In this document: in pieces, positions 1-6,802 of the stretch
Layout of the letters: each line of letters begins with the position of its first letter
How positions within the stretch are numbered: position 1 is the stretch's first letter
From: Candidatus Symbiothrix sp.
Lineage (GTDB): Bacteria; Bacteroidota; Bacteroidia; Bacteroidales; Azobacteroidaceae
DNA: 6,802 bases
Direction: 5' to 3'
Assembly: GCA_031270525.1 (NCBI GenBank)
Contig: JAISXN010000203.1
Coordinates: 1-6,802, forward strand
Made by a program: the position numbers and the translations under genes
Notes under the pieces: generated by a model
Databases searched by the model: none
What the model was told of the DNA's origin: nothing
The model's input: only the letters and a program-made list of their open reading frames with translations

Positions 1-675
1 TCCACAGACATTATCCGGCAACAAGTGGAAGCGGTATTGGACGATATCACCGTCGATGCCGTTAAAACCGGCATGCTTCCCTCTCCTGAAATTATCGAAA
101 CGGTCGCCTCGCTCATCGACCGCTACAACTTGAAAAACGTAATTGTCGATCCGGTAATGGTAGCAACCAGCGGCGCTCGCCTGACAGACCCCGGCATTGC
201 CGAAGCTTTTCGTAAACATCTATATACAAGGGCAATGCTTATTACCCCTAATATTCCTGAGGCGGAAGCCCTTTCGGGCATTACCATTCAAACGGAAGAT
301 GATTTTCAAAAAGCGGCGGATATCATGATGGAACAAGGTTGTCAGGCAGTCTTGATCAAAGGCGGCCATTTTACCAAAGAAAGAGTGACGGATATACTTT
401 TCGGACCGGAAAAAGGGGAAAGTACCTCCTTGGGATCAAGTCATGTCAAATCTAAAAATTTGCATGGCACAGGCTGCACTTTTTCTTCGGCCATCGCTGC
501 CAATATCGCATTGGGATGGGATTTGACAAACGCCGTCAGACGTGCGAAAATGTATATTTTCCTGGCCATCGAAAACGGAAGCAATCTAATCACCGGAAAT
601 GGCTATGGGCCTGTAAATCACCTATTTAAACCCAAACGGCTTAAAAAATTAAAAACTCGCGCTACTTCTCAATAG
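1..675 (+). CDS. thiD: Hydroxymethylpyrimidine / phosphomethylpyrimidine kinase, 5' end outside window
   Basis: ThiD phosphorylates 4-amino-5-hydroxymethyl-2-methylpyrimidine and then its monophosphate, giving HMP-PP for cytosolic thiamine phosphate synthesis. The frame is open from base 1 and 224 codons are visible before TAG at 673-675. By recalled alignment to the 266-residue E. coli protein, about 55 N-terminal residues are missing, including the GTDPSGGAG substrate loop. Visible ribokinase-fold marks, numbered from base 1: VKTGM near 21-25, VDPVMVATSG near 46-55, LITPNIPEA from 80, KGGH at 120-123, and the anion-hole motif HGTGCT at 155-160 with the conserved Cys at 159. The C-terminal GYGPVNHLF matches the family's GxGPVxHF ending, followed by a short basic tail. 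The GTG at 25 is an internal valine codon, not the true start. No fusion to ThiE is seen on the visible side. The gene converges on the metallopeptidase gene, and their last 14 bp overlap. Family call firm; upstream thi neighbours cannot be seen. Confidence 0.95.
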   Translation, partial: STDIIRQQVEAVLDDITVDAVKTGMLPSPEIIETVASLIDRYNLKNVIVDPVMVATSGARLTDPGIAEAFRKHLYTRAMLITPNIPEAEALSGITIQTEDDFQKAADIMMEQGCQAVLIKGGHFTKERVTDILFGPEKGESTSLGSSHVKSKNLHGTGCTFSSAIAANIALGWDLTNAVRRAKMYIFLAIENGSNLITGNGYGPVNHLFKPKRLKKLKTRATSQ

Positions 676-2686
676 CCTCCAACATCGGCTTCACCGACAA
701 CGGTTTACCCGTAGCCTGCAGAATCCATTGATTAGGCGTCAATCTTCCCAAACGATAGATGCGATCCACTTCCGTAGCGAAATCTTTTTTCTGTAAATAT
801 TGTTCCAATTGAAACTCAATGATATGCCCAAATGAATATGCCGATAAATACAAAGGATAACTGAGTATATGGGAATAGATTGCCAAAACCGGTTCGTCTT
901 TTACACCGAAGATGGGAGCATAATATTCGTTCCAAATTTCTTTTGACAGGCGGATAACAGCTTCTTTCAATTCTGCCGGCGTCGCATCGGGATTTGCATA
1001 CATCCATTTCCATACGCTTATGTCTAAGAGGGATACGCCTGAAATCTCGAATAAACTCCAAGCTTTATCCAAAACATCCGAATTATCTTCTCCCGAAGAT
1101 TGATCTTTAATTCCCAAAATATCCAAATCTCTTTTCTGGAAAACAAAAGCCAACGCTTCGGTAAAAGCGGTGTTGGGTACTCCGTTCAACAGGTAATAAT
1201 CGACGTCGTAGAGCGATATGGTTTGTTCTACGTTGTGGCCAAATTCGTGAATAGCAATGTTATAGCCTTTGTAGTCCAAGCCTCCTTCCGGAATACGGGT
1301 TCTGAGATGAGCATGGTTTCCTTTTTGGGAAGCACCCCAAGCGTGTCCCGAGCCGCGGGCGGCGTCAACATCTATTTTTCCAGCTAAATATTGGGCGCGT
1401 TCTTTCGTAAAACCTAATTTTTCGAGAATGTTCGGCAAGTCTTTTTTTAGGGCTTGGGCATTCGGATAAAGCTCTTTGGTTATGTTGCTTAAACTGTCTT
1501 CATTTAAGGAACTCCTCAATTTAAAACCATCGTACCAAATATCGAAAGCCTGCAATTTCCGGCCAAGACGGGAAGCCACAATTTTCCCGGCTGTCTTCAT
1601 TTCGGGAGCAGAAAGGTATTCCCTGAAAAGTTTTTCGGCGTCGTTGACCGACACTTCCATATCTTCCGAAAAATTCCGGTCGATATAAGTGTTTCCGGTA
1701 TAGGCGTCAATGGCTTTTAATGCGCTGAAATTGTTTAGTAAAATTTCGTAACGTGTTGTATTTTCGTTATTTACATTGATTTTTTTACCCGATTGAAATA
1801 CTTGATTGGTATATGGATTCCAATCGTAATCGCCCGAATTAATAACTTCTTTCGGAATTTCTTGCGAAATAATCCGCTTCATGGCTTCATAGATGGTTTG
1901 CTGTTTGTTGAGTCCCGTTTTTCCTTTATTATAATTTGCTTTAATCTCATCTCGTAAATTCCAGTGTGACAGCAAAATCATATTTTCCGGAAAAATCTTT
2001 TTTTCTGATTTGTCCAGCAGATGACCGGCATAAATATTGTAATTGGCTATATATACATCGGCATCGCTATTGGCTTTGGTAACAGCTTGTTGTAGTGCAG
2101 CCGGCACTCGGCTCGTGAACAAATCGCCCAGCCGGGCATAAGCCCAATCAAGGCGATTATTTCCAAGCAATTCTTTTTCTTCCAGAGAATATTCCGGAAA
2201 ATTTAACGTGATAAAAAATGCTAACTTGTTGGCATACATATCATCGCTGAAATGTGTATTCGGACTGTAAGCCGCAAATTGCTCGTCAATTTTGAGCAAA
2301 GGGCCGGTCGCTTCATGGACATTTTTTTGCAATTGGAGGGACATTTCATTGTAATTTCCCCAGATAGCTTCCAGATAATTACTGATTTTCAGGAAAATAG
2401 TTTCTTTTTCCGAAGGATTGGAAATGTAATTATCTAAGCAAAAACGAATAAATTCGTCTTCGGTCCTATCTTGTGGTTGCCAAAGCCTTGCCGTTTGTTT
2501 TACGCCTTTCTCTATCAGCGTTTTGCCGGACGGATTTTTACCGGACAAATCGGCTATTACTTTCTCAATGGACGGAAGTGTGATTGTGTGCATTTGATTA
2601 ACGTCGCTTTCACTTGAGATTCTCGCTTTCGCGGGAATGACAGAAAGAATTACTATTGAAATGATGATTGCAAAAACTTTTTTCAT
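662..2686 (-). CDS. Exported zinc metallopeptidase (HEFGH gluzincin, M3/M2-like)
   Basis: Predicted secreted zinc peptidase of 674 residues. The N-terminus MKK plus a hydrophobic stretch (residues 4-18) is a signal peptide with a likely cleavage site after A19-K20-A21; there is no lipobox Cys. Residues about 40-440 are mostly helical with no motif I recognise. The catalytic part begins near GSGHAWGA (445-452). The zinc site is H480-E481-F-G-H484, and E510 in the FTEAL segment is the likely third ligand, 26 residues after H484. That spacing is close to thimet oligopeptidase (M3) and ACE (M2), which makes this a gluzincin. The C-terminal block around 603-660 (SYPLYLSAYSFG, then RLTPNQW) resembles the helical substrate-binding end of M2/M3/M32 enzymes. 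Likely role: periplasmic or extracellular peptide trimming; substrate unknown. The start is supported by a good SD (GAAGGA, 8 nt spacing) and by the signal peptide. It is second in an operon with ald, 5 bp downstream of it. A palindromic repeat lies in frame in the signal peptide. Peptidase class firm; exact family uncertain. Confidence 0.85.
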   Translation of the reverse strand: MKKVFAIIISIVILSVIPAKARISSESDVNQMHTITLPSIEKVIADLSGKNPSGKTLIEKGVKQTARLWQPQDRTEDEFIRFCLDNYISNPSEKETIFLKISNYLEAIWGNYNEMSLQLQKNVHEATGPLLKIDEQFAAYSPNTHFSDDMYANKLAFFITLNFPEYSLEEKELLGNNRLDWAYARLGDLFTSRVPAALQQAVTKANSDADVYIANYNIYAGHLLDKSEKKIFPENMILLSHWNLRDEIKANYNKGKTGLNKQQTIYEAMKRIISQEIPKEVINSGDYDWNPYTNQVFQSGKKINVNNENTTRYEILLNNFSALKAIDAYTGNTYIDRNFSEDMEVSVNDAEKLFREYLSAPEMKTAGKIVASRLGRKLQAFDIWYDGFKLRSSLNEDSLSNITKELYPNAQALKKDLPNILEKLGFTKERAQYLAGKIDVDAARGSGHAWGASQKGNHAHLRTRIPEGGLDYKGYNIAIHEFGHNVEQTISLYDVDYYLLNGVPNTAFTEALAFVFQKRDLDILGIKDQSSGEDNSDVLDKAWSLFEISGVSLLDISVWKWMYANPDATPAELKEAVIRLSKEIWNEYYAPIFGVKDEPVLAIYSHILSYPLYLSAYSFGHIIEFQLEQYLQKKDFATEVDRIYRLGRLTPNQWILQATGKPLSVKPMLEAIEK
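2619..2638 (-). repeat. REP-like palindrome inside the metallopeptidase signal-peptide coding sequence
   Basis: Eight-base arms ATTCTCGC (2619-2626) and GCGGGAAT (2631-2638) flank TTTC; one position is a G-U wobble in RNA of the + strand. On the coding strand it reads ATTCCCGC, GAAA, GCGAGAAT and is preceded by GTC. That is one base away from the GTCATTCCCGCGAAAGCGGGAAT type of palindrome I know as a dispersed repeat in several bacterial genomes (for example the Neisseria dRS3 type), commonly mistranslated as VIPAKAGI. Here it is in frame and encodes residues 17-23, I-P-A-K-A-R-I. No second copy occurs in this window, so dispersal in this genome is not shown. Confidence 0.6.
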
Positions 2687-3878: not shown

Positions 3879-5168
3879 TTATTGTAATAAAAGTCGATGC
3901 GCTTTCTCAATCATTTTTATTTGCGAAGAAGGAATATCATGTTCTTTGGCAATCCGTTTCCATTGCGAAACCGATTCGATTACTTCTTCGATAATTTCAT
4001 TTGCTTTTTTGATATTCATTGACTTGGCAACTTGCAAAAAGTCGGATTTTGCAAAGCCGTCTTGTTTACCGTTGATAGTCATTTGGTGTAGCGATGTATA
4101 TTTTCCCAACGGATTGTAAGAGAAAGTCATATCATAAGCAGGAGCTAATCGCCATTTTCCTTCTTTGTTCATCAGGAAAGACACGTTTTTAGTATGGTCA
4201 TCCTGATTTCGGGCAACGACATTGAATACCATCCGGCGATAGGCTTGTTCGGCGGCGGTATAAGGCAAACGCAAAGTACGCATGGTCTGAAATAGTTGTT
4301 CGTAGGCATAAATACCCGGACTATTGAAATCGAAATGAGCCAAACCGCAAAGCGTTTGCATGTGGAGTTTTTCCTTATTGCCTATCCGGTCGAAGCGGCG
4401 GGTTAAGAAATGGTAACGGCCGTTTTCCGTCAATAAACGGGATTCCATCATTTCGATTCCGCAGGATATTGCCATGAAGTAATAGACTTGTTCAATGCGT
4501 CCGAAATGCACAGGGTCTTTTAGTTCTTTGTCTCGATTGTCTATTCCGTCTAATTTAATCAGCCAGTGCGAGAATCCTTCCGGGGCGTTTAGTTGTCCCG
4601 AACGTATTTCACCTGTCTTTTCGTTATAAGCGATTATGGCTTTGGCGCGTGCGCCTCCGGCGGAAGTTCCGACTTTGATGATTTGTGATATTTCATTTTC
4701 ATTGTGCAGGTCGGCGGTTTGTTTTTCTTTGTCGGCCAAAGCATAACGAGCCGCTTGAATCAAACCTTCCAATTCGATTTTTGTGGAGTTATTTTGAACT
4801 ACTTTTTCGGCCGGTTCAAATTCAAGGGCGCCCATTCCTCGTTTACCCAGATAGAGTAATCGTTCCACAGGATTATACGAGTCGGGGTCACGTCCTTGTT
4901 CCGCCAACCACCGGTTAATCAGGGCATTTCCGAATTTGTCGGGTAGCGAGTCTGCCAATAAACCCGGTAATCCTTTGAAAGTCACCCTGTTGATTTCCGG
5001 AAAAGAATAGATTTGTCCTGCTTGCAAGGGCATTTTTAGAGGAGAAAGATCCAGACCTTTGGCGACAAACTTCGGATCATATTCGAAGCTTGCTATTTCT
5101 CTTGCAGGATCCCACGAGACGGTGCCTGCGATATCTTCCCAAATCCGGATATGTGCGTAATTTACCAT
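3879..5168 (-). CDS. hipA: HipA-family Ser/Thr kinase toxin
   Basis: HipA kinases are toxins of type II toxin-antitoxin pairs; E. coli HipA phosphorylates GltX and causes growth arrest. The 429 residues compare with 440 in E. coli, so it is full length. The N-terminal HipA-coupling domain (about 1-115) contains GLLADSLPDKFGN (69-81) and GKRGMGAL (108-115). The nucleotide loop VGTSAGGARAKA spans 166-177; S169 falls where E. coli has the autophosphorylated S150, and K176 is the likely ATP-contacting lysine. The catalytic loop R320-N-Q-D323-D-H-T-K-N328 gives D323 as the equivalent of E. coli D309, and A-Y-D346 is the metal-binding Asp (E. coli D332) at the same 23-residue offset. All key kinase residues are present, so it should be active. 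The start overlaps the antitoxin stop by 7 bp (ATGGTAA), indicating translational coupling. The target is unknown; the loop is of the GGAR(P)K type found in HipA relatives rather than E. coli's AGAQEK, so GltX should not be assumed. Confidence 0.93.
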   Translation of the reverse strand: MVNYAHIRIWEDIAGTVSWDPAREIASFEYDPKFVAKGLDLSPLKMPLQAGQIYSFPEINRVTFKGLPGLLADSLPDKFGNALINRWLAEQGRDPDSYNPVERLLYLGKRGMGALEFEPAEKVVQNNSTKIELEGLIQAARYALADKEKQTADLHNENEISQIIKVGTSAGGARAKAIIAYNEKTGEIRSGQLNAPEGFSHWLIKLDGIDNRDKELKDPVHFGRIEQVYYFMAISCGIEMMESRLLTENGRYHFLTRRFDRIGNKEKLHMQTLCGLAHFDFNSPGIYAYEQLFQTMRTLRLPYTAAEQAYRRMVFNVVARNQDDHTKNVSFLMNKEGKWRLAPAYDMTFSYNPLGKYTSLHQMTINGKQDGFAKSDFLQVAKSMNIKKANEIIEEVIESVSQWKRIAKEHDIPSSQIKMIEKAHRLLLQ

Positions 5169-5518
5169 TCTGAAACGTTTTTATTTTCTTTGGTTTTTCG
5201 ATTGACTGAAGCTCTTTTGCGCGTCTTGCCCCGAAGTTTGGCAATTTGAATAGGGCTTACCGGAGCTTCGGCAATAAATTGATTGAGTATTTCAATTTTT
5301 TCTAAAACACGGAGAATCTGGATAAATGAACTCATTGTTCCCATGCCTCGGTTCTCTATGTCGATGATCGTACTGCGGGATAATCCTGCAGATTTTCCTA
5401 ATTTTGTTTGAGAAAGATTTTTATTCAGCCGTATTTGCCTGATTTGTGCGCCAAGCAAGCGGAGAATAGCTTCATTACTCATCAAATAATTGAATTTAAT
5501 GTTTACTTTTTCAGTCAT
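5162..5518 (-). CDS. hipB: HipB-like helix-turn-helix antitoxin / autorepressor
   Basis: A 118-residue DNA-binding protein directly upstream of hipA. Residues about 21-80 form a Cro/C1-type (HTH_3) domain: LGAQIRQIRLNKNLSQTKL leads into the helix-turn-helix, with the first helix near 36-43 (SQTKLGKS) and the recognition helix near 47-55 (SRSTIIDIE). The C-terminal tail (86-113) is rich in Lys and Arg (KLRGKTRKR) and follows a PVSPIQ linker; it may contact HipA or DNA. By family precedent it neutralises HipA by binding it and represses its own operon. The chosen ATG at 5518 lies about 20 nt after the predicted transcription start; a second in-frame ATG (codon 13, 5480-5482, MSNEAI) would still leave the whole HTH, so the exact start is open. 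Neither start has a clear SD. The upstream dyads described separately are its candidate binding sites. Confidence 0.88.
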   Translation of the reverse strand: MTEKVNIKFNYLMSNEAILRLLGAQIRQIRLNKNLSQTKLGKSAGLSRSTIIDIENRGMGTMSSFIQILRVLEKIEILNQFIAEAPVSPIQIAKLRGKTRKRASVNRKTKENKNVSEW

Positions 5519-5535
5519 TAGCCCCTATTTTTGCT

Positions 5536-5563
5536 TTTAATGCAGCAAATTTACGACATTATT
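5536..5563. promoter_or_regulatory. Candidate operator O1, overlapping the hipBA -7 box
   Basis: A dyad with core TAATG (5538-5542), 14 bp, CATTA (5557-5561), centred at 5549.5. It is the weakest of the three outside the core (6 of 11 arm positions are symmetric), but its right arm CGACATTAT matches an arm of O2 at nine consecutive positions on the opposite strand. The hipBA -7 box and the predicted start of transcription lie within or next to it. Confidence 0.5.
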
Positions 5564-5577
5564 TTTGATTTTACAAG
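5546..5577 (-). promoter_or_regulatory. Promoter of hipBA (Bacteroides type)
   Basis: On the minus strand CTTG (5577-5574) is followed after 20 bp by TAAATTTG (5553-5546), an exact match to TAnnTTTG. Transcription would start near 5539-5541, leaving a leader of about 20 nt before the hipB ATG at 5518. The -7 box lies in the middle of the first dyad, so binding there would block the polymerase. Confidence 0.65.
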
Positions 5578-5651
5578 TTTTTTCGATAGTTTTTTCAAGG
5601 AAATAAATTGGATTATTATGAGGATACTATTTGGTTTACTTTGATTGTTTT

Positions 5652-5679
5652 TATAATGTCGGTTTTTTCGGTCATTATA
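5652..5679. promoter_or_regulatory. Candidate operator O2
   Basis: A 28-bp dyad TATAATGTCGG, six T, CGGTCATTATA, centred at 5665.5. The outer seven bases on each side are perfectly symmetric; 9 of 11 arm positions pair overall. It matches O3 read on the opposite strand at 24 of 28 positions. Confidence 0.6.
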
Positions 5680-5692
5680 GCTAAAAAATGGC

Positions 5693-5720
5693 TTTAATGT
5701 CGGAAAAAACCGTCATTATA
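5693..5720. promoter_or_regulatory. Candidate operator O3
   Basis: A 28-bp dyad TTTAATGTCGG, six A, CCGTCATTATA, centred at 5706.5, 41 bp from O2. Nine of 11 arm positions pair. It is effectively an inverted copy of O2, with an A6 spacer where O2 has T6. It is the site closest to the divergent gene, ending 50 bp before the -7 box at 5770. Confidence 0.6.
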
Positions 5721-5777: not shown

Positions 5778-5873
5778 CGAAATTAGCGAAATGAGTGTAA
5801 TTCGCGTTCCAAATAATTTCTACGTAGTCAAATACGCCAGTGGATAAAATTTTTTTATATGAAAAAGAAGTCT

Positions 5874-5881
5874 TATATTTG
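5874..5881 (+). promoter_or_regulatory. Candidate -7 box for the DUF6377-like gene (proximal)
   Basis: TATATTTG also matches TAnnTTTG exactly; 20 bp upstream there is TTTT (5850-5853) in place of TTTG. If used, RNA would start about 10 nt before the ATG at 5898 and the in-frame ATG at 5859 would not be transcribed. It may equally be chance in AT-rich coding sequence. Confidence 0.3.
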
Positions 5882-5897
5882 TATTTTTACAAGATTT

Positions 5898-6802
5898 ATG
5901 AGACGATTATTTTTATTTGCGACGTTATTATTTTTACCGTTTTCAATTCAAGCATCTACAGATAGCGAATTGGATTCGATTTTTCAGGTCTTGTTTCGGG
6001 CTATGAATAATAAAGACATTTATGTAATTGAAAAAGAGCAGCGTCTTTATGAAATCAAAAACATGTTGACCATGCCGGATTTGACGGATAATCAGCGTTA
6101 TACGATATACAATAAATTGTATGACGAATATTGCCATTACAAAGTGGATTCCGCCATTTATTATCAGGAATTGAATCTGGAACTTGCCGGAAAATGTAAT
6201 AATTTGGAATATAAATATACGGCGCTTTTGAATCTTTCTTTTTCTTATTGGATTAAGGGGCGTTTTCTTGAGTCGATGAATATAATGGACAATCTTGATC
6301 GTAAACTTTTTGATCGCTTTCCCGAATGGTTGCTTGTCGAATATTATGAATCTTACGAACGTTTGTATATGTATTATGCGGTCATAGAAGGTAACGATTC
6401 AAATGAATATTATCGCCGGAATAGTTTGTACCGGGATTCTTTATTGCAAGTAATTCAGCCGAATACATTAAAATATAATATCATAACTGCCGAAAAATTG
6501 GGCGATGAAAATAAAACCGAAGAAGCCAAAAAATTCCTGATGGAATCTTTGAAAAACATAAAATCCGAAAATCACGATAAGGCAATTGTAGCTAATATTA
6601 TAGCGGGTATTTACAAAAAGGAAGGTAATACGGAGATGCAGAAAAAATATTGCGCCGTATCGGCAATATGCGATATAAAGAACGCGGTGAAAGAAAATAC
6701 TTCTATGATGGCGCTGGCGCTGCTGTTGTATGGCGAGGGTAATATCGACGAGGCCTACAAATGTATTAAATCCTCTATGGACGACGCCGTTTTTTGCAAT
6801 GC
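5898..6802 (+). CDS. Exported TPR-type protein resembling DUF6377 family, 3' end outside window
   Basis: An open frame of 301 codons runs off the right edge with no stop. The N-terminus MRRLFLFATLLFLPFSIQA is a classic signal peptide with cleavage likely after A19. Next comes SELDSIFQVLFRAMNNKDIYVIEKEQRLYEIK (23-54), the opening pattern I associate with Bacteroidota DUF6377 proteins. Helical pairs of TPR type follow: about 102-133 (YKYTALLNLSFSYWIKGRF), about 205-240, and 268-295 (ALALLLYGEGNIDEAYKCI). The visible end SSMDDAVFCN (292-301) also fits that family. Family members, as I recall them, continue with a membrane helix and a cytoplasmic C-terminal part, and are thought to be envelope sensors or regulators; none of that part is visible. 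An in-frame ATG at 5859 (MKKKSYICIF) would add 13 residues; I prefer 5898 because it gives a compact signal peptide. The gene is divergent from hipBA. Family assignment is from memory of its patterns, function unknown. Confidence 0.75.
   Translation, partial: MRRLFLFATLLFLPFSIQASTDSELDSIFQVLFRAMNNKDIYVIEKEQRLYEIKNMLTMPDLTDNQRYTIYNKLYDEYCHYKVDSAIYYQELNLELAGKCNNLEYKYTALLNLSFSYWIKGRFLESMNIMDNLDRKLFDRFPEWLLVEYYESYERLYMYYAVIEGNDSNEYYRRNSLYRDSLLQVIQPNTLKYNIITAEKLGDENKTEEAKKFLMESLKNIKSENHDKAIVANIIAGIYKKEGNTEMQKKYCAVSAICDIKNAVKENTSMMALALLLYGEGNIDEAYKCIKSSMDDAVFCN

Follow-up and report, generated by a model that had tools for sequence, protein, structure and literature searches.

HipBA is the founding persistence module. 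In Escherichia coli K-12, four dyads arranged as two equally spaced pairs lie upstream of hipB-hipA, with spacings of 28, 39, and 28 bp. The helix-turn-helix (HTH) antitoxin of this species represses its own operon, as stated in the sections of PMC3376134 available to us. In the review PMC7180214, it is proposed that dimerisation of the HipA N-domain blocks the active site and that the HipA-HipB-operator complex depends on it, and the hipA7 change is considered likely to impair both HipA dimerisation and the complex with operator DNA. A HipA-HipB-operator complex from the same family is that of Shewanella oneidensis hipBA (PDB 4pu4).

In Legionella pneumophila hipBST, several inverted repeats lie upstream of hipB and are bound by the HipB of Legionella; their place upstream of hipB is as at the locus described below, but unlike it that system is tripartite, with three evenly spaced, unpaired sites and 53-bp gaps (PMC10653801, accessible portion). 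Within the accessible parts of the open-access literature searched, hipBA promoter architecture is described for E. coli only, plus Legionella for HipBST. A description of Bacteroidota hipBA operators or of a 41-bp spacing was not found in this open-access literature, subscription papers being outside its scope.

In the hipBA locus presented here, from Candidatus Symbiothrix sp., the dyads ahead of hipB likewise number four and form two pairs of equal spacing, but the spacing within each pair is 41 bp instead of the 28 bp of E. coli K-12. Its dyads are 24 bp long with the core TAATG-N14-CATTA, and do not match the E. coli type TATCC-N8-GGATA with 28-bp spacing.

The hipBA operon and its dyads

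The window, that is, the whole stretch of 6,802 nucleotides that was analysed, contains the following features of the operon and its upstream region.

hipA, 3879..5168, minus strand: 429 aa, Couple_hipA and HipA_C kinase
hipB, 5162..5518, minus strand: 118 aa, HTH_3 antitoxin/repressor with Arg48 in the recognition helix
O1, 5497..5520, minus strand: dyad that straddles the start codon of hipB, its centre lying 10 nt into the coding sequence
O2, 5538..5561, minus strand: dyad 41 bp upstream of O1, over the likely -7 promoter box
O3, 5654..5677, minus strand: inner dyad of the distal pair
O4, 5695..5718, minus strand: outer partner of O3 in the distal pair, 41 bp away from it and in inverted orientation

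The HTH (Cro/XRE) antitoxin gene lies directly 5' of the kinase gene, and the two overlap by 7 nt. HipA is full length, with Couple_hipA at residues 6-117 and HipA_C at 168-402, so that both the N-terminal subdomain and the kinase domain are there. Its DDHTKN...APAYD stretch, which we take to contain the catalytic residues, aligns with HipT(Lp), for which a structure is known. We collected 35 HipB homologues, of which 29 were aligned with the HipB of the window; in these 30 rows the C-terminal W118 is nearly invariant, and the corresponding literature on E. coli calls W88 of HipB universally conserved (PMC3376134, accessible sections). The predicted HipB structure has a mean pLDDT of 75.8, and Foldseek and PDB profile searches with HipB gave HTH relatives only, HipB included, among the matches listed. 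A hipA-like ORF follows downstream in 55 of the 59 loci with at least 1500 bp; one of the four without it, L006, stops within hipB.

The window also holds a 674-aa protein (662-2686, minus strand) with a HEFGH metallopeptidase-like motif and without a Pfam match at 1e-3. Meanwhile, a DUF6377 protein (5859-6800, plus strand) is encoded divergently from hipBA, with the distal pair 141-205 bp ahead of the first ATG of its gene, which the pair could co-regulate.

The first-pass annotation had reported three dyads with identical cores and identical spacing. All three are found where it placed them, and a count by eye reproduced the match at 24 of 28 positions between the second and the third, one being inverted. 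The actual number of copies is four, however. The additional exact copy (5497-5520) had escaped notice since it extends into the hipB reading frame, its CATTA holding the complement of the start codon (5518-5516). Start-to-start distances across O1-O4 are 41, 116, and 41 bp, so the array consists of two pairs with one identical ruler.

The annotated rarity of the split core is borne out: TAATG-N14-CATTA occurs four times in the window with zero mismatches, against 0.01 copies expected, and none of 200 shuffles reached four copies. The motif is not scattered through the source genome either (1.49 Mb examined, 53% complete), where it was found at six places, against three for the reversed-pattern control. 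Only two of the six lie outside the window, both of them single copies within ORFs. We also searched 393 genomes of the order with a pair pattern of 20 fixed bases, allowing at most 2 mismatches and using no protein information. This pattern matched five distinct places in four genomes, namely two in the source genome, G343:C12, G389:C9, and G326:C42, and each of the five falls either on the start of a HipB homologue or immediately ahead of it. The reversed control matched 10 times in 10 genomes, exceeding these five matches, which means that the pattern itself is not enriched and that only its position is non-random.

The distal pair O3/O4 makes up a 65-bp inverted repeat with the potential for cruciform extrusion, and the 73-nt stretch there folds as RNA at -24.4 kcal/mol (z -9.1), a property that favours dyads acting as RNA hairpins or as a DNA cruciform. 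We regard such a role as highly improbable. Single sites fold weakly, at -0.5 to -6.0 kcal/mol, and the one z of -9.8 among them rests on near-invariant shuffles; a terminator-like site was looked for and none was found. Furthermore, O3 and O4 lie upstream of the inferred promoter, and distal pairs elsewhere, for example that of L068, are direct repeats. The RNA hairpin and terminator readings were rejected on account of the weak single-site folds and the lack of a terminator-like site.

Across 29 distal pairs, which had been selected using positions +-1 to 12, dyad symmetry peaks at +-8 to 9 (0.88, 0.78) and at +-3 to 5 (0.72 to 0.74) from the centre. These positions overlap those that the TATCC box occupies in E. 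coli (+-5 to 9), and a single HipB dimer with the usual geometry is therefore enough for each dyad. The 19 bp between half-sites had been taken to imply that the dimer is arranged differently or that each site holds two dimers, an assumption that is not needed. Judging from the sequence evidence as a whole, the proposal that the dyads are a candidate operator set for HipB is very probably right, while the copy number and the wider dimer geometry attached to it were not supported.

Conservation in close orthologues

The close orthologue set comprised 10 distinct loci with a profile score above 150, including the window and leaving out the truncated L055. The sites are kept upstream of these orthologous hipBA operons: O2 is present with at most 2 mismatches in nine of the ten loci, and O1, with at most 2 mismatches and at the same place, in seven. 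A distal pair with at most 1 mismatch per site occurs in five, with a spacing of 41 bp in all of them; when the DNA of the close orthologues upstream of -60 was examined at all other spacings between 26 and 80 bp, a pair as good as these was not found. The distance from O3 to O2 ranges from 39 to 116 bp in four of the five loci with a distal pair; the fifth, L044, has no O2. The proximal spacing is 40 bp, not 41, in L040 and L043. L044 combines its 41-bp distal pair with no match to either O1 or O2 and comes from a MAG labelled Elusimicrobiota, which would reflect either horizontal transfer or a binning error.

The upstream neighbours vary among these loci. DUF6377 stands in the window; in L006 the place is taken by a different divergent gene, a HAD-type hydrolase judging by eye, and L037 to L043 have other ORFs there. 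This bears on the idea that the array serves as operator for some other regulator, or for DUF6377 as the divergent gene, and is next to hipBA by coincidence. In its favour, the distal pair of the window lies between divergent genes; against it, the sites of the orthologues persist while the upstream neighbours change, and the letters of the sites vary together with the recognition helix of HipB, as described below. We therefore consider this idea very unlikely.

The 41-bp spacing upstream of hipB genes

We compared 93 distinct hipB upstream regions with a profile score above 50, which were 101 before regions more than 60% alike were dropped. Of these, 81 are the window and relatives of the same order, and 12 come from other contigs, including four from Flavobacterium. 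The order is very probably Bacteroidales, as G343, which is assigned to it, shares its hipB start with Dysgonomonas sp. PF1-14. Each region was given a four-arm score, which rates pairs of dyads whose arms are shared, at each of the 55 spacings between 26 and 80 bp. At a spacing of 41 the mean score over the 93 regions was 17.54, against 12.0 (sd 0.37) for the remaining spacings (z 15.1). This spacing was the best of the 55 in 51.2 of the 93 regions, with ties shared, against 4.0 for the runner-up spacing. When only DNA upstream of -45 was used, 41 still gave a z of 8.6 and was best in 31.8 of 92 regions. Meanwhile, 164 flanking pieces showed no 41-bp signal (41 ranks 38 of 55). In 32 XRE genes with a profile score below 50, a set that includes the E. 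coli hipB and possibly further HipBs, the signal was weak (z 3.4, best in 3.0 of 32).

Since the four-arm score was devised after the 41-bp spacing had first been seen, it is reported also for regions fetched as held-out. In these 34 regions the z for 41 was 13.7, and 41 was the sole best spacing in 16 and tied in 5. A 41-bp pair scoring at least 17 is present in 57 of the 93 regions and absent from 36. Such a pair is present in just one, L051, of the four distinct regions from Flavobacterium, and the evidence for the ruler thus comes mainly from a single order. The O1-like sites of Flavobacterium were discounted as independent support because coding can explain them.

Clustering by blastn into 40 unrelated groups left a strong 41-bp pair in 23 of the 40 groups, whereas no other spacing from 30 to 60 bp reached more than 3 of the 40. 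This recurrence across DNA-unrelated clusters with differing letters, like the failure of all 200 shuffles to reach four copies, makes it extremely improbable that the dyads arose by chance in AT-rich DNA or represent a shared repeat element, even though the core letters are AT-rich and two single copies exist elsewhere in the source genome. These comparisons show, at the level of sequence and chiefly for the order of the window, that the spacing outlasts the operator letters upstream of hipB genes.

The position of the dyads was reproduced only partly in held-out loci. In 58 regions, the two highest mean dyad scores were at -31 and +10 from the ATG, exactly 41 apart; when measured against arm-swapping, -31 came first (z 4.8) and +10 only tenth (z 2.3). 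In a repeat with 40 held-out regions, many of them very distant, -32 ranked first by z and second by raw score, +10 was third by raw score, and the highest raw score was at -7, while -31 was only 18th and 45th of 180. A simple scan for dyads with 12-bp arms found the 41-bp spacing 11 times in 57 distant regions, against 1.3 expected. In the 10 close orthologues it found the spacing once against 0.25 expected at threshold 8, and not at all at threshold 9; the scan is blind there because the dyad centres are poorly symmetric. An apparent second spacing of 37 bp, seen in nine loci, was rejected since only 2 of the 40 cluster representatives show it. Seven of these nine loci also have a 41-bp distal pair scoring at least 17; L102 scores 16 and L053 scores 11.

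A possible, if doubtful, explanation of the ruler is that the dyads bind HipB and that 41 bp reflects the helical phasing of two independent dimers on one DNA face, with no HipA bridge. A spacing of 41 bp is close to four helical turns, and HipB alone repressed the E. coli hipBST promoter, with high expression needed (PMC10627512, accessible portion). In addition, some HipBs with a short N-terminus keep the 41-bp pair without having the N-terminal extension; the extension is thus not the bridge, and it was rejected as the source of the ruler. Phasing, however, should tolerate spacings of about 31 and 52 bp too, and these were counted in only 0-1 of 40 cluster representatives. The spacings found in Pseudomonadota also argue against it, as the 28 bp of E. 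coli and the 27-28 bp of six other loci correspond to non-integer numbers of turns. In E. coli the highest four-arm score was at 67, the sum of 28 and 39. The six loci, from Enterobacter, Pantoea, Aeromonas, Rahnella, Hirschia, and Vibrio (six among the 40 matches listed), have their best spacing at 27-28 bp or at the double of it, 54-56, and 27-28 bp is among the top three scores in all six.

Recognition helix and operator letters

Across the 57 regions that have a strong pair, how alike the half-sites are can be predicted from how alike the recognition helices of HipB are (residues 46-53), after correction for the remainder of the HipB protein (partial Mantel 0.41, 0 of 2000 permutations). 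The best single residue among HipB positions 1-99 is R48. G at +-8 occupies at least three of the four arms in 34 of 35 Arg48 loci and in none of the 22 others (Fisher 7e-15), and among cluster representatives it is found in 10 of 10 with Arg48 and 0 of 13 without, although few independent switches lie behind these counts, as the tree requires three R48 changes (bootstrap 2-4). L104 and L105 group with seven Arg48-less HipBs, yet they carry Arg48 together with TAATG letters. In E. coli the residue aligned with Arg48 is Gln39, and the operator letter at +-8 is A, whereas it is G here. This covariation is evidence, short of proof, that HipB itself reads the dyads, and Arg48 with G8 makes a candidate one-residue specificity code.

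Genome G024 encodes two HipB paralogues, L006 and L032, each with its own 41-bp pair. The operator letters and the recognition helices of the two differ, one having Arg48 and the other not, so the two systems would stay apart.

Overlap with the promoter and the start codon

The first codons of hipB double as the O1 dyad, and its right half coincides with conserved codons (I-K-F); hence, the conservation of O1 by itself proves little. O2, meanwhile, overlaps the likely promoter, for which two elements can be proposed.

Likely hipB -7 box, TAAATTTG, 5546..5553, minus strand: within O2, matching the Bacteroides consensus TAnnTTTG
Possible -33 element, CTTG, 5574..5577, minus strand: a weak candidate located 20 nt 5' of the -7 box, with 3 of 4 letters matching TTTG

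The -7 consensus TAnnTTTG was deduced in Bacteroides fragilis (PMC7366714, accessible sections). The box lies at -35/-34, within O2, in eight of the ten close orthologues. A -7-box match is found between -60 and -15 in 75 of the 93 regions, while -330 to -60 of the same regions contains 24 in total. The placement of O1 within the coding start and of O2 on a Bacteroides-type -7 box sets this locus apart from that of E. coli.

In HipBs with an N-terminal extension, the centre of O1 lies 10 nt inside the coding sequence in 27 of 35 loci. In short-form HipBs, a pair lies at -13 to -11 in 10 of 25. The extension looks like operator DNA that became translated.

Proposed mechanism of autoregulation

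The best reading of the array is HipBA autoregulation of the known type, with a lineage-specific ruler. We consider it highly probable that the four dyads form the operator through which hipBA represses itself, with one HipB dimer on each dyad and two dimers, probably together with HipA, jointly occupying each 41-bp pair. HipB on O2 would cover the -7 box and so block the sigma factor, and HipB on O1, at the start region, may block initiation or elongation. The distal pair probably adds cooperative strength to the repression. That the spacing is fixed suggests concerted action of two HipB(A) units on the DNA, and, by analogy with E. coli, this spacing may be set by the quaternary structure of DNA-bound HipBA. 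The same analogy suggests that HipA could bridge the paired operators here.

Implications for HipBA in Bacteroidota

The ruler may be specific to lineages, at 41 bp in Bacteroidales, and perhaps in all Bacteroidota, and at 27-28 bp in Pseudomonadota, held by contacts between toxins or between repressors that span the paired operators, while the letters evolve with the HipB helix. DNA-bound HipBA would then be an obligate higher-order machine with a distinct geometry in each phylum, a proposition for which we see the case as evenly balanced. The spacing of the paired dyads offers a simple search pattern for locating hipBA operators. That this spacing recurs in unrelated sequences suggests contact or joint action between two HipB(A) units bound to DNA, and the idea developed in E. 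coli, in which the toxin is neutralised via HipA dimers on the promoter, becomes testable in a second phylum.
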